Positions 919-30,958 of a stretch of DNA of 64,000 nucleotides are shown here, one piece after another (within the stretch, counting starts at the first letter, position 1; each line of letters opens with the position of its first letter). This stretch comes from Mycolicibacterium cosmeticum (GTDB lineage: Bacteria; Actinomycetota; Actinomycetes; Mycobacteriales; Mycobacteriaceae). The stretch spans positions 3,141,356 through 3,205,355 of the forward strand of contig NZ_CCBB010000001.1 in the NCBI RefSeq assembly GCF_000613185.1, in the 5' to 3' direction. The translations under genes and the position numbers were made by a program. The notes below the pieces were generated by a model that was not told the origin of the DNA, made no database searches, and saw nothing but the letters and a program-made list of their open reading frames with translations.

Positions 919-2021
919 CCGCTGGTTTTCGAGATGACCGCGCCCCGGACCGGGTGGGCGGCAATCCAATTGGCGATGGCCGTGGCCGCAGGCTTGGCCG
1001 TCCAGGCCTGGTTGAAGACGCCCCACGGGGTCTCGTTCGGCCGGTCCACCAGGCAGTAGATGAACATCGGCCCGACGCCGGGCAGCGTCGACCAGGTGGT
1101 CGCGAAATCCGTTATCCACGCGGCCTGGGTCTGCGCGTTCACCGCCGATGTCGGGACGCCGTACTCCGTGGTCCAGATCAGCTTGCCGGTGTCACCGGCG
1201 GCATTCATCAACGCCCGCAACGACTTCACCTGTTGGTAGGGCGTGTTGGCGTACGGGGCGCCCGCGGAGAAGCTGCTGGAGAAGTTGTACGGGTGGAAGG
1301 ACAGCGCGTCGAAGTAGCCCTGCGCGCCCGCCGAGTACATCTGGGTCAGGTAGTTGACCGGGTTGATGGTCCAGGTGCCGAAGGTCAGGCCGGCCCCCAG
1401 CACGCCGCCGATCACCGGGGCCGTCGGCTCGACCTGCTTGACGGCGGTGTAGGCGGCCTTGAGCAACGCGGTGTAGCCCGCGACGTTCGGCTGCGGTGAC
1501 CATCCGGTGTTGCCGTTCGGTTCGTTCCAGATCTCGTACGCGGCGACCCTGGGCGCACTGCTGCGCGAACCGTACCGCTGGGCCACCTGGGTCATGAACC
1601 TGGCGTAGTCGTTGGGGTCGTCCGGTGCCGCGTTGGGCAACCAGAAGCCCACCTTGGACGCCCAGGTCGGCGTGCTGGTCACCGCGCCGACCACCGCGAG
1701 TCCTTGTGCCGCAGCGGCATCGAGAATCCGGTCGGCGTCCACCCAGTTGTACTTGCCCTTCTGCGGCTCCATCGCCCGCCAGGGCAGGAACACCCTGATC
1801 TGCTTGACGCCCATGGCCTGGAAGTTCTGCATGGCGGCGGCCAGGTCGGTGGCGTTCATGAAGTACAGGTTGGATTCGGCCATGCCCATCGCGGTGGCCG
1901 AGGTGTCGATGGTCAACGGGGCCAGGGCCGCGGCGCGGGGTTGCGGTGCGATGCCGTAGAGCGCCGCCGCCACCAGGGCAACGACCATGAGTAATCGGTT
2001 GACGGGACGGATGGCGGGCAT
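915..2021 (-). CDS. Secreted clan GH-A glycoside hydrolase (GH39/GH5-like)
   Basis: 368 residues with an N-terminal signal peptide (hydrophobic run after NRLL, then a QPRAAA cleavage region). The fold signature is a TIM-barrel clan GH-A enzyme: IWNEPNG near residue 165 supplies the acid/base Glu and TTEYG near residue 287 the nucleophile Glu, and an aromatic-rich stretch follows. Such retaining enzymes cut beta-linked polysaccharides; the exact substrate cannot be read from sequence. An AAAGG motif lies about 6 nt before the ATG. It converges on the GH6 gene with a 4-nt stop overlap, so the two glycosidases face each other. Confidence 0.82.
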   Translation of the reverse strand: MPAIRPVNRLLMVVALVAAALYGIAPQPRAAALAPLTIDTSATAMGMAESNLYFMNATDLAAAMQNFQAMGVKQIRVFLPWRAMEPQKGKYNWVDADRILDAAAAQGLAVVGAVTSTPTWASKVGFWLPNAAPDDPNDYARFMTQVAQRYGSRSSAPRVAAYEIWNEPNGNTGWSPQPNVAGYTALLKAAYTAVKQVEPTAPVIGGVLGAGLTFGTWTINPVNYLTQMYSAGAQGYFDALSFHPYNFSSSFSAGAPYANTPYQQVKSLRALMNAAGDTGKLIWTTEYGVPTSAVNAQTQAAWITDFATTWSTLPGVGPMFIYCLVDRPNETPWGVFNQAWTAKPAATAIANWIAAHPVRGAVISKTSG

Positions 2022-2520
2022 GACAGCCTTTCTGGCAGGCCAAGCGGTTGCGCATCATTAAGGCAGATCAACCGCCCTCTTGCACAGCGCCGTTCGGCCG
2101 GCCGTGGGGGTGCCGCGCACCGCCCCGTGGCAGGCGGGACGCGTGCCTGCGGATGTCCTGACCGCTGTCCGGCCGGTATGCCAGCAACGCCGGGCGGCGT
2201 CGCCGCCGCTGGTGCCGGCACGGTGCCACATCGGTCGTCGTTCCGCTCGCAGGCCTCACACGCTGGTCTTTTTGTTTGCAAACAGGCGCGCCGCACCGAA
2301 ATTTGCTGGGAGGTCAAAATGTGCTCACCGGCAGCCAGGTAACACCCAGGGTGATAAGCGATTATTGCCAGGATTCGGTCTTCGGGCCGCACCCGCCGGT
2401 GATGTGCTGCGCGGGTGCCGTAATTCCGTCACCGAATCGAAACGCCGCCGAGTGTAAACCGAGATGTACTCGGGCCGGATGGCGTTGCGGGACAGCCCCA
2501 ATCGTCCAAGCCGGCCGCAT
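2022..2520. other. Intergenic stretch without a convincing gene
   Basis: About 500 bp without codon structure that I trust. It contains a perfect 12-bp palindrome TGTTTGCAAACA at 2273-2284. A seven-codon open frame (2319-2342) sits behind a good GGGAGG Shine-Dalgarno. Nothing downstream on the plus strand is a plausible target, so no function is assigned. Confidence 0.5.
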
Positions 2521-21569: not shown

Positions 21570-21628
21570 CTGCCAATCGGCGGTCAATTACTGCCACCGG
21601 AATTACCCAGCTGACCAGTGCGTTATGG
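21570..21628 (+). promoter_or_regulatory. Conserved upstream element of secreted peptide 1
   Basis: This 59-bp block starts exactly 100 bp before the peptide ATG. It matches the block at 27621-27679 without gaps: shared runs are CTGCCA, GCGGTCAATT, CTGCCA, CGGAATTACC and GTGCGTT-n-TGG. TGCCA occurs twice. It is probably a promoter with regulator sites; no known sigma consensus is clear to me. Confidence 0.7.
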
Positions 21629-21669
21629 CTGGCAGAAGTCAGCAGACCACTAGCCAGAAGGGCACTCAA

Positions 21670-21837
21670 ATGAAGAAGTTCGGTTTTGCCAGCATCATCG
21701 CCTCCGGGTTCGCCGCCGCCGTCGTGGCCTTGGCCGCCCCGGCGCAGGCCGATATCACCCACCACGAATGGGTGAACGATATCCAGCAGCACGCCACCAC
21801 CGGCCAGGTGACGTCGGTCTTCGGCAACGGCCGTTGA
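21670..21837 (+). CDS. 55-residue secreted peptide, copy 1
   Basis: The precursor begins MKKFGFASIIASGFAAA, with a Lys-Lys n-region and a hydrophobic core, and has a clear signal peptidase site APAQA-D. The mature part is 28 residues, starts DITHHEWVNDIQQHATTG and ends VFGNGR. A paralogue of the same length at 27721 keeps the MKKFGF start, the DIxHHEW block, QQxATTG and the GNGR end. The gene has a conserved upstream element and a strong hairpin after the stop, so it appears monocistronic. Paired His and Trp could bind a metal, but this is speculation. I know no characterised member. Confidence 0.8.
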   Translation: MKKFGFASIIASGFAAAVVALAAPAQADITHHEWVNDIQQHATTGQVTSVFGNGR

Positions 21838-21853
21838 TCGGAGCCGCTGCGCA

Positions 21854-21884
21854 AAAGGGGCACCCCACACCGGGGTGCCCCTTT
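21854..21884. terminator. Hairpin after secreted peptide 1
   Basis: A 13-bp perfect stem (AAAGGGGCACCCC pairing with its complement) with a 5-nt loop, 16 nt after the peptide stop. GC-rich with T/A at the ends, it could act on either strand. There is no long U tract. Confidence 0.7.
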
Positions 21885-21913
21885 GCACATCTGCGCCCTT
21901 GTATAACGGCATC

Positions 21914-24983: not shown

Positions 24984-25008
24984 CTACCCGGCGGGTCGTG
25001 GCGCAAAC
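24984..25008 (-). promoter_or_regulatory. SigF-type promoter of DUF2795-TPP enzyme-PfpI
   Basis: Minus strand: GTTT at 25008-25005, 15-nt spacer, GGGTAG at 24989-24984, 10 nt before the DUF2795 ATG. Confidence 0.72.
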
Positions 25009-25014
25009 CTCGGC

Positions 25015-26051
25015 TCAGCCCTTGGTGCGGGTGTCGATGACGCGCTGCGCCAGCTCGAGCAGGCCCATGTCCGACTGGTCGGCGAGCCGGCGCAACATCT
25101 CGAACGCCGCGACGTCGTCGACACCGTAGCGCTCCATGATGATGCCCTTGGCCTGGCCGAGCCGCTCCCGGCTGCCGAGCGGCGAGGTGAGCGCCGAACC
25201 CCACGGACTGGCCGCCGCGAGGCCAGCACCGCGCCGACGGTCTCGGCATCGTCATCCCAGGGCCTCGCTCCGAAGCCGAAGATGTTCATGGTCGCGGCGG
25301 TCGACCCGGCGCAGTAGATCTTGTAGGACAGGCTGCTGCGCACCCCGCGGGCGACGGCCGCCGGCGAGTACCGGGGCCAGCGGGTCTCGGTGCCGAAATC
25401 GTCGGCCCGCACCATGGTGCTGTCGGCGGCGGCCTGCGCGCACGGCCCCTCCCCGAACCGCTGTTGCAGTTCGTCGAGCTCGGCCGCCAGCGGCGAGGTG
25501 GCGCCCATCGACAGCACGGCACCGTCGCGCAGCACCATGATGTCGGCGACGTCCGCACCGGGGATCAATTCGACCGCCAGCGCGGCGATATCGGCGAAGA
25601 GCTGGTCGGCCGGCCGAAACTCACGCACCTCCGGTGCCAGCTCGGCCAGCCGCTCGACCAGCTGCGGCCCCTGCATGGTGTTCTGCGCGGACATCCTCGT
25701 CACCTCTCTCACGGTGTAGTGCAGCGGGCCGTCCGGGGCGACGACGGCGGCACCGGACGCGTCTGCGACCAGCCAGCCGGTGCCGGCCAGATGCCGACTG
25801 ACCCGGTCGACGTCGTCGAATAGCGGAGTGTCGCGCAGCAGCGCGGCAATCGCCGTGCGGATATCGGACTGCAGGATGGGGGGCCCGGCGCCGTTGGTGC
25901 GGCCCGCGACGATCAGGACCTCGTCGTCCGACAGCCGCCGGCGCAGCAGGGCGAACAACGGCAGATAACCGGTGGCGGGCACTCCGGTGGGGTAACCGGC
26001 GCGGAAGAAGTCCGCCACCGTCGTCAGCGCTCGTGTAAGCACGATCACCAC
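25015..26051 (-). pseudogene. DUF3349-GAF-ANTAR gene with a frameshift before ANTAR
   Basis: From the GTG at 26051 one frame reads a DUF3349-like domain (VADFFRAGYPTGVPATGYLPLFALLRRRL, about 100 residues) and then, without a stop, a GAF domain (ELIPGADVADIMVLRDG, FGEGPCAQAA, FGFGARPWDDDAETVGAVLA). At about 25217-25224 the frame breaks. The neighbouring frame then encodes SALTSPLGSRERLGQAKG and the rest of a full ANTAR domain, ending at TGA 25015-25017. The apparent lesion is loss of one base or of 3n+1 bases. An internal ATG at 25694 with a GAGAGAGG leader could start the GAF part alone. A SigF-type promoter lies upstream. Sequencing error cannot be excluded. Confidence 0.72.
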
Positions 26052-27620: not shown

Positions 27621-27679
27621 CTGCCACGAAGCGGTCAATTCCTGCCAGCGGAATTACCTGGGCCCACGGTGCGTTGTGG
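27621..27679 (+). promoter_or_regulatory. Conserved upstream element of secreted peptide 2
   Basis: A gap-free counterpart of 21570-21628, again starting exactly 100 bp before the peptide ATG. The shared core runs from GCGGTCAATT through CTGCCA to CGGAATTACC, then GTGCGTT-n-TGG. Confidence 0.7.
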
Positions 27680-27720
27680 AAGCCAGGAACCGTCAGAGGC
27701 TCGTACGAAAGGGCTTGAAA

Positions 27721-27888
27721 ATGAAGAAGTTTGGATTCACCGGAATCATCGCTACGGCGTTCGCCGCGATGGTTGTCGGACTGGCCGCTCCCGCGCAGGC
27801 CGACATCGCCCATCACGAGTGGGTGCACGACAACCAGCAGCGTGCCACCACCGGTGCGGTGACTTCGATCGTGGGCAACGGCCGCTAG
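27721..27888 (+). CDS. 55-residue secreted peptide, copy 2
   Basis: The signal peptide is MKKFGFTGIIATAFAAMVV plus LAAPAQA-D. The mature 28 residues begin DIAHHEWVHDNQQRATTG and end IVGNGR. It matches copy 1 over the whole length with no gap: the N-terminal MKKFGF, the DIxHHEW block, QQxATTG and the GNGR terminus are identical or nearly so, while exposed positions differ (N/H, I/N, H/R). That pattern suggests purifying selection on the motif and divergence at contact sites. A hairpin follows. Function unknown; a signalling, metal-binding or antimicrobial role are all open. Confidence 0.8.
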   Translation: MKKFGFTGIIATAFAAMVVGLAAPAQADIAHHEWVHDNQQRATTGAVTSIVGNGR

Positions 27889-27907
27889 GTCTGCCGTCGA
27901 TCGACCC

Positions 27908-27946
27908 GACGAGGAGGGGCACCCGCAACGGGTGTCCCTCTTCGTC
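27908..27946. terminator. Hairpin after secreted peptide 2
   Basis: A 17-bp stem, with two G-U pairs when read as plus-strand RNA, and loop GCAAC, 19 nt after the stop. Its position mirrors the hairpin after copy 1. Confidence 0.7.
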
Positions 27947-28053
27947 GTGTGGGCCGCACCGCCCACTTCCGGGAATAGCGCCGGATGGGCCATAGTTGGG
28001 CGACATGGTCGGGTATCGCACCGCGACGACAACGACGACAGCTGGGGACGCGC

Positions 28054-29398: not shown

Positions 29399-29806
29399 AT
29401 GGCCAAGTACCTGATGCTGAAGCACTACCGCGGGGCGCCGGCGGCGGTCAACGACGTCCCGATGGATCGGTGGGAGCCGGCCGAGGTCGAGGCGCACATC
29501 AAGTACATGAACGATTTCGCCGCCCGGCTGCAGGCCAGCGGTGAGTATGTCGACAGCCAGGCGCTGGCGCCCGGCGGCACCTGGGTGCGCTCGGGCGGGG
29601 CCGGTAAGCCACCCGTCACCGACGGTCCGTTCGCCGAGACCAAGGACCTCATCGCCGGGTGGATGATGATCGACGTCGACAGTTACGAGCGCGCGCTCGA
29701 GCTGGCCGGGGAGTTGTCGGCGGCGCCCGGCGCCGGTGGGGAGCCGATCCATGAATGGCTGGAGCTGCGGCCACTGCTGAACCACACCCCGTGCGTCGCG
29801 GAGTAG
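29399..29806 (+). CDS. DGPF/YCII-domain protein
   Basis: 135 residues. DGPFAETKDLIAGWMMIDVDSYERALELA is the signature of the YCII-related DGPF family. These proteins are the usual neighbours of ECF42 sigma factors, and the next gene is one, 9 nt downstream. The ATG has GGAGGGAG in good position. The DGPF protein may sense or modulate the sigma factor; published work links the two, but the mechanism is not settled. Confidence 0.9.
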   Translation: MAKYLMLKHYRGAPAAVNDVPMDRWEPAEVEAHIKYMNDFAARLQASGEYVDSQALAPGGTWVRSGGAGKPPVTDGPFAETKDLIAGWMMIDVDSYERALELAGELSAAPGAGGEPIHEWLELRPLLNHTPCVAE

Positions 29807-29815
29807 CCGTCGCGC

Positions 29816-30958
29816 ATGGTGGACGCCGCCCAGCTGCGTGAGCTGATCCCCGGCGTGCTGGCCGCGCTGGTGCGCCGGGGAGCGGATTTCGGCACCGCCG
29901 AGGACGCGGTGCAGGAAGCGCTGATCCGGGCTCTGCAGATCTGGCCGGCACAACCGCCCGCCGACCCGAAGGCCTGGCTGATCACCACCGCGTGGCGCCG
30001 ATTCGTCGACCTCGCCCGCTCCGACGCCGCCCGGGTTCAGCGCGAACAGCTTGTCGCAGAACAACCTTCGCCTGGACCAGCCGTCGACGTGGACGACACC
30101 CTGGCGCTGTATTTCCTGTGCGCGCACCCGCGGCTGTCGCCCGCTTCGGCGGTCGCGCTGACGCTGCGCGCGGTGGGCGGGTTGACCACCCGGCAGATCG
30201 CCCAGGCCTATCTGGTCCCGGAAGCGACCATGGCGCAACGCATCAGCCGCGCCAAACGCACCGTCGGCGCTACCCGGCTGGACCGCCCCGGCGACCTGCA
30301 CACCGTGCTCAAGGTGGTGTACCTCGTGTTCAACGAGGGCTACAGCGGGGAAGTCGATCTGGCGGAGGAGGCCATCCGGCTGGCCAGGCAGCTGGTCGCC
30401 GCGACACCCGACGAGGAGGCCGCCGGGTTACTGGCCTTGTTCCTGCTGCATCACGCCAGACGTCCGGCGCGCACCCGGCCCGACGGCGCCCTGGTGCCGC
30501 TGGCCGAACAGGACCGCACGCTGTGGCGGCGGGACCTGATCACCGAAGGCATCGATATCCTGCAGGCCGCCCTGGCGCGGGATCGCTTGGGGGAGTACCA
30601 GGCTCAGGCTGCCATCGCCGCCCTGCACGCCGACGCCGAGACGGCCGAGCAGACCGACTGGGTGCAGATCGTCGAGTGGTATGACGAACTGGTGCACCTC
30701 ACCGACAGCCCGGTGGTGCGGCTGAACCGGGCCGTGGCACTGGGTGAGGCCGACGGGCCGCGGGCCGGGTTGGCTGCACTGGCGGCACTGGATCCCGCCC
30801 TGCCGAGGTACACCGCGGCGGCGGCGTATCTGCACGAGCGGGCCGGTGCGGCGGCAACGGCCGCCGACCTCTACGTGCAAGCCGCGGCGGAGGCCGACAA
30901 CGTGGCCGAACGTGACCACCTCACGATCCGGGCCGCCGCGCTGCGCCGGCCGGGCTGA
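29816..30958 (+). CDS. ECF42-type RNA polymerase sigma factor
   Basis: 380 residues. The N-terminal 170 contain sigma region 2 (EDAVQEALIRALQIWP, PKAWLITTAWRRFVDLAR) and region 4 (LTTRQIAQAYLVPEATMAQRISRAKRTV). The C-terminal about 200 residues are a helical-repeat (TPR-like) extension typical of ECF42, which replaces an anti-sigma factor as the control element. A DYxxxW-like element is not evident in what I can see. The last 38 nt overlap the 3' end of the convergent TetR gene. Confidence 0.9.
   Translation: MVDAAQLRELIPGVLAALVRRGADFGTAEDAVQEALIRALQIWPAQPPADPKAWLITTAWRRFVDLARSDAARVQREQLVAEQPSPGPAVDVDDTLALYFLCAHPRLSPASAVALTLRAVGGLTTRQIAQAYLVPEATMAQRISRAKRTVGATRLDRPGDLHTVLKVVYLVFNEGYSGEVDLAEEAIRLARQLVAATPDEEAAGLLALFLLHHARRPARTRPDGALVPLAEQDRTLWRRDLITEGIDILQAALARDRLGEYQAQAAIAALHADAETAEQTDWVQIVEWYDELVHLTDSPVVRLNRAVALGEADGPRAGLAALAALDPALPRYTAAAAYLHERAGAAATAADLYVQAAAEADNVAERDHLTIRAAALRRPG

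Follow-up and report, generated by a model that had tools for sequence, protein, structure and literature searches.

What are the two 55-residue secreted peptides encoded in this stretch of Mycolicibacterium cosmeticum DNA, and what connects them to other genes of the genus? The preliminary description of the window, by which we mean the whole analysed stretch of 64,000 nucleotides, had taken them for duplicated, exported and conserved micropeptides, unusual in mycobacteria and of no described function. In this study, we explored both loci and their flanking DNA by comparison across genomes, and we propose, with a probability of roughly 0.5, that they belong, as stand-alone stress genes, to a regulon specific to the genus, in which a SigH-type sigma factor and a candidate activator would drive the production of cysteine-free exported proteins.

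The two peptide genes

Both open reading frames could be confirmed (Table 1), and the motifs HHEW, QQxATTG and GNGR-stop each occur, over the six frames of the window, only at copies 1 and 2. If the signal peptide is cleaved after AQA, as judged by eye from the A-x-A rule, a mature part of 28 residues is left. The copies are identical at 42 of 55 residues (76%), with a pS of 0.55 and a pN of 0.13. Copy 2 agrees with P0052 at 54 of 55 positions and copy 1 with P0002 at 52 of 55, and since each is thus closer to these proteins than to the other copy, the two look like old, separate lineages. In the protein search, 134 proteins, the window's own included, matched at E<=1; at least three of them (P0027, P0039 and P0082) bear the species name M. 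smegmatis. We compared 207 gene pairs, differing at 2–30% of bases and drawn from 36 distinct 55-residue genes of the same type (type A, see below), and found pN below pS in all 207 for the signal peptide and in 201 for the mature part. The coding sequence is under selection, the conservation of codon pattern that had been set beforehand as a test is present in nearly all the type A gene pairs compared, and an RNA-only element is ruled out by pN<pS; both window peptides therefore look like real translated genes. Export, duplication and conservation as translated peptides are borne out by the protein search, the paralogues and pN<pS; the preliminary description had overlooked the promoter in common and the further mature types (see below), which tell more about these genes. 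The pair are also more than twins, the genome holding five family members, namely copies 1 and 2, L003 and L004 (both ending in VHQSH) and the divergent L005. An in-frame ATG further upstream at 21625, opening a 70-residue frame, was rejected as the start of copy 1, since it directly adjoins the -10 trimer and cannot serve as start if this promoter is used. An origin from a phage or plasmid was rejected, as neither the phage nor the plasmid collection gave a match.

The preliminary remark that no function is described for these peptides agrees with our searches: neither window peptide reaches the cut-off of any Pfam or NCBIfam family, no solved structure is related to the mature parts at a convincing E-value, and no description of the family or of its promoter was found among the matches listed from the open-access literature. 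DUF732, the UniRef name of P0012, is absent from Pfam matches of both peptides at E<=10, and the WGxxGxxG family NF041742 scores 12.8 and 13.7 bits against a curated cut-off of 35. We attribute the likeness to WGxxGxxG NF041742, DUF732 and PASTA (see below) to signal-peptide-like similarity or to automated naming.

Table 1. Sequence features of the two peptide loci; positions are those of the window.
Feature	Position	Strand	Basis
Copy 1, direct repeat CTGCCA-N15-CTGCCA, proposed activator site	21570..21596	+	0 mismatches
Copy 1, -35 hexamer GGAATT, SigH-type	21599..21604	+	consensus GGAAYR-N17-GTT (available part of PMC4803200)
Copy 1, -10 trimer GTT, 17 bp past hexamer	21622..21624	+	spacing tally over elements
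Copy 1, ribosome-binding-site-like AGAAGG	21656..21661	+	
Copy 1, gene for 55-residue predicted exported peptide	21670..21837	+	
Copy 1, signal peptide	21670..21750	+	cleavage by eye
Copy 1, mature part	21751..21834	+	cleavage by eye
Copy 1, terminator-like hairpin	21854..21884	+	fold of 21838-21912: -37.8 kcal/mol; limits by eye
Copy 2, direct repeat CTGCCA-N15-CTGCCA	27621..27647	+	0 mismatches
Copy 2, -35 hexamer GGAATT	27650..27655	+	
Copy 2, -10 trimer GTT, 17 bp past hexamer	27673..27675	+	
Copy 2, ribosome-binding-site-like GAAAGGG	27707..27713	+	
Copy 2, gene for 55-residue predicted exported peptide	27721..27888	+	
Copy 2, signal peptide	27721..27801	+	cleavage by eye
Copy 2, mature part	27802..27885	+	cleavage by eye
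Copy 2, terminator-like hairpin	27907..27947	+	fold of 27889-27963: -47.7 kcal/mol; limits by eye

A common upstream element

The features follow each other in the same order at each copy: direct repeat CTGCCA-N15-CTGCCA, then GGAATT-N17-GTT, a ribosome-binding-site-like stretch, the open reading frame and a strong hairpin. At <=1 mismatch, the direct repeat is found three times in the window, compared with a mean of 0.48 and a maximum of 2 in shuffles; the third match (2012-2038, minus strand, 1 mismatch) looks like chance. Two further observations concern the surroundings of the peptide genes. Some 1.5 kb downstream of copy 2, positions 29399-30958 (+) hold two ORFs, the first YCII/DGPF-like and the second for an ECF sigma factor whose C-terminal extension is long and which we take, by eye, to be ECF42-like. 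A GAF-like ORF at 24984-26051 (-) looks frameshifted by eye, its C-terminal part leaving the frame that holds an ANTAR-like stretch at 25015-25137.

When the whole genome was scanned for the repeat extended by its TT flanks and the CAATT within, at <=3 mismatches and with no promoter required, four sites came up, every one upstream of family genes (control 0); the family gene L004 lacks the repeat. Across the 148 genomes of the genus searched, the pattern CTGCCA-N15-CTGCCA-NN-GGAATNA at <=1 mismatch was found at 133 sites in 61 genomes, compared with 3 matches of the backward pattern, and the preliminary label "unusual in mycobacteria" finds no support as worded, all the more as small exported proteins lie behind this element and 51 of the 128 complete genes are of the HHxW type. 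In the consensus of 122 distinct elements, each CTGCCA is preceded by TT, and CAATT lies within the repeat. This extended repeat, at <=2 mismatches, is found in 29 of 60 genomes of the genus (2 control matches, for the pattern only); the element pattern at 3 mismatches is a noise-limited setting (3 sites, 3 control matches). Outside the genus, 230 genomes from 30 genera contained 2 sites of the element versus 9 backward-control matches, both sites with 1 mismatch and unconserved spacers; among the genomes searched, its occurrence there is thus at chance level. By eye, repeat and GGAAT could further be recognised in every one of the 12 mycobacterial loci taken from named genome records (L010-L021), which are not to be counted as extra evidence, since some of these records seem to recur within the genome set searched. 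For the 13th locus of that search, from Arthrobacter (L022), the match lies in the signal peptide only and the element is absent.

Direct repeats of 21-bp period beside a -35 hexamer are typical of AraC/XylS activators. The present repeat, just upstream of the -35, would bind a candidate activator. In several elements, an inverted pair like CTGACC...GGTCAG flanks the -10 by eye, a possible second operator.

Four types of exported protein

All 133 stretches behind the elements were fetched. Complete genes could be read behind 128 of them; among the remaining five, four are cut by contig ends and one stays open to the end of the fetched stretch. Apart from two genes (L035, L106), the complete genes all encode small exported proteins whose signal peptides are related and whose mature parts fall into four types, assigned by motif: A in 51 cases, B in 59 (counting L059, which is interrupted by Ns), C in 8 and D in 8. 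L035 is an element-linked type B gene with a frameshifted tail, and its near relative L036 is intact. The two window copies, together with 54 proteins from the protein search, served to build an HMM of the type A signal peptide. It reached >=12 bits behind 129 of the 130 elements that are followed by 200 bases or more, and in a single one of 130 control stretches; it was used in place of a loose regular expression, which 77 of 1000 random positions had passed. Hairpins below -25 kcal/mol follow 122 of 125 stop codons (43 of 125 in shuffles), and a regulator gene lies directly behind the element in none of the 128 genes read.

Type A itself is narrowly distributed. With up to 26 candidates scored per genome, profile A3 at E<=1e-6 matched at least 11 of 251 genomes, all from the genus itself, and none of the candidates scored from 230 genomes of 30 other genera reached this threshold. 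At E<=0.01, 100 of 148 genomes had a match to profile A1, a figure not usable as a count of peptides because many of these matches are to the signal peptide only. Type B includes a short variant of 82 residues (D/EDRGY...), found behind six element sites in one genome (G042, L114-L119) and behind seven in another (G014, L127-L131, L154 and L155; two of them contig-cut).

In six representatives scanned, the other types likewise gave no Pfam or NCBIfam family above cut-off. Among 36 members, LytR_C matched 16 (best E 0.022) and PepSY_2 matched 15 (best E 0.0056), both below cut-off for the member shown, and we did not accept the weak LytR_C match as an identity of type B; PASTA, the UniRef name of some type B proteins, gave no Pfam match at E<=0.1 in the same 36.

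Three other views of what the peptides do were weighed. One histidine of the HH-x-W motif is invariant in 35 aligned rows and the tryptophan nearly so, which speaks for metal- or haem-binding peptides, but types B, C and D stand behind the same element without this motif, which therefore cannot explain the regulon, and we consider such binding very improbable. It is somewhat easier, though still improbable, to see the proteins as secreted signalling peptides or pheromones whose active parts are the conserved C-termini GNGR and VDTTVHQSR: mature parts are short, and genomes carry several paralogues with distinct tails, but the element also drives domain-like type B proteins of about 70 residues. 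We give least credence to an antimicrobial or competitive function, in which one common leader would export variable cargo. Several mature types that share one element and signal peptide do recall leader-cargo families, but the type A mature part is under purifying selection and diversification is not seen there.

The group has a formal parallel in the chaplins and rodlins of Streptomyces, where several small secreted proteins are under one ECF factor, BldN. The likeness lies in several small secreted proteins sharing one ECF sigma factor; the difference is that no such family exceeded the cut-off in scans of the window peptides and six representatives.

Probable assignment of the sigma-factor promoter

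The trimer GTT was absent from the search pattern, yet it is present in all 134 rows (133 element sites, one read twice), at 17 bp from the hexamer in 93, at 18 bp in 40 and at 19 bp in one, whereas shuffled spacers carry GTT at 16–19 bp in 349 of 6700 trials (about 5%). At hexamer position 6 we counted T in 116 rows, G in 16 and C in 2. Position 5 is C in 4 of 134 rows where the pattern asked for T, and the frequency of T there proves nothing, because T was built into the pattern.

For M. tuberculosis SigH, the available part of the literature gives the consensus GGAAYR-N17-GTT with a spacing of N17-18, a preference for A/G at position 6 and tolerance of variation at the 2nd, 5th and 6th positions of the -35 (PMC4803200). 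SigH of C. glutamicum reads GGAAT-N18-19-GTT, counted from a five-base -35, while SigE requires C at the fifth position, GGAAC (PMC10012870, in the part available), and in M. smegmatis treated with hypochlorite 124 GGAAY-N18/19-GTT promoters were induced (PMC5430705, likewise). Our GTT spacing fits GGAAYR-N17/18-GTT, the GGAAT core having been part of the search, and the C at position 5 that marks SigE promoters occurs in none of the 8 + 11 type A hexamers collected from the protein side (see below). Judged by consensus, the promoter thus appears close to that of SigH. With the regulons of M. tuberculosis, M. smegmatis and C. glutamicum, it shares the -35/-10 core, the spacing and the stress-type promoter class; the regulon genes named in the available parts of these reports serve redox, repair, chaperone and proteolysis functions, in contrast to the small exported proteins found here, and the CTGCCA-N15-CTGCCA repeat goes unmentioned for SigH regulons in those same parts (PMC4803200, PMC5430705, PMC10012870).

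We infer that the sigma factor is SigH itself. Position 6 is mostly T and position 5 is A in several of the genes collected from the protein side, both off the SigH optimum, and the presence of a direct repeat hints at the integration of a second signal. A less probable alternative is that the same architecture serves another ECF sigma factor and another cue, such as nutrient, surface or growth phase, and that the products are ordinary structural envelope peptides instead of a stress set. Mycobacteria possess several SigH-like sigma factors. Against this alternative, core and spacing match SigH closely, and SigH is reported to tolerate changes at positions 2, 5 and 6 (PMC4803200, available part).

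At L042, L168 and L169, the -10 lies very near the start codon; leaderless transcripts would be expected there, since GTT sits so close to the ATG (L168, L169).

Type A genes approached from the protein side

Twenty type A genes were picked from the best-scoring profile A1 matches that had no listed strict element. The repeat is kept clearly in 11 of them and doubtfully in one (L185). A GGAA-like hexamer with GTT 17–18 bp further on accompanies 11 of these 12 repeat-bearing genes, the hexamer being GGAAT in four, GGAAA in five and weaker in two. Position 5 is thus T in the four GGAAT genes and A in the other seven; L176 lacks such a pair, GTT being absent at the right place. In five genes (L170, L172, L174, L184 and L187), 13 bp rather than 2 bp separate the repeat from the -35; this displacement, roughly one helical turn, fits a protein bound to the repeat.

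The repeat is absent from the other 8 genes, with L183 retaining one half-site. All eight carry GGAAT followed by GTT 17–20 bases after the pentamer, 36–96 bases before the ORF, at a chance per gene of 0.006–0.022 (C at position 5 allowed, never seen). Since all eight repeat-less genes keep the promoter, the sigma-type promoter appears to be more constant than the repeat, which would act as an additional input.

Cysteine and the type B homologues

None of the 126 classified element-linked proteins contains a cysteine. Type B homologues exist, however, that carry a conserved cysteine pair, with the second cysteine at or near the C-terminus (PLxQC...VRPG...VYVDxxC). They have the same domain and occur in several copies per genome, but differ from element-linked type B in having two cysteines and no element. 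We picked 40 type B genes by protein similarity, all without listed strict element. Among the 18 with cysteine, none has the repeat and one (L223) a -35/-10 pair; among the 22 free of cysteine, 10 have the repeat (<=2 mismatches), 7 the -35/-10 pair only and 5 neither. Where neither promoter feature is present, the cysteine pair is kept in 17 of 22 genes. In M. cosmeticum itself, the eight type B homologues read (L188-L195) all contain cysteine and show neither feature. Cysteine-containing type B-like exported proteins are numerous in this genome: it gives 17 matches at E<=0.1, five of which are members of the type A family that match mainly by signal peptide.

The association of cysteine with promoter state has a Fisher p of 4.6e-6 over the 40 genes, a value that ignores relatedness. 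On the tree of 103 rows, the cysteine state requires only 3 changes, and two to three independent pairs of cysteine and promoter state run in the expected direction, too few to reach significance; L216 is cysteine-free among cysteine-containing relatives and has no visible promoter. Because it rests on two or three evolutionary changes, the link between cysteine and promoter is suggestive only and is treated here as a hypothesis.

Conclusions

We propose a model in which a SigH-type ECF sigma factor reads GGAATT-N17/18-GTT, aided by a candidate activator that would sit next to the -35, on the adjoining upstream repeat CTGCCA-N15-CTGCCA of 21-bp period. Every gene is predicted to form a single-gene transcript with its own terminator and would yield one small cysteine-free exported protein. 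A stress that frees the sigma factor, which for SigH means heat or oxidation, would then lead to export of the cysteine-free set, which may act in the envelope or outside the cell, the 28-residue HHxW...GNGR peptides being one of its four types. As to what the mature peptides do, the most economical guess is that they protect the envelope when the cell meets heat or thiol stress.

The boldest reading of the set goes further. Under zinc starvation, zinc-free ribosomal paralogues are made, and a comparable logic would apply if the cysteine-free exported counterparts replaced exported disulfide proteins that may fail to fold under thiol-oxidative stress, which would also free the SigH-type sigma factor. 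Such a substitution set would comprise type B minus its cysteine pair, together with types A, C and D without cysteine; we regard this replacement of cysteine-containing exported proteins as unlikely.

An element of about 75 bp predicts small exported proteins, mostly named 'hypothetical' or unnamed, in 126 of 128 readable cases, and through it orphan secreted peptides are linked with a sigma promoter of stress type and a candidate activator. A concrete induction condition follows from the promoter type, and the role of the peptides is directly testable. If the cysteine link holds, the regulon would reveal a novel means of shielding the exported proteome against thiol stress.
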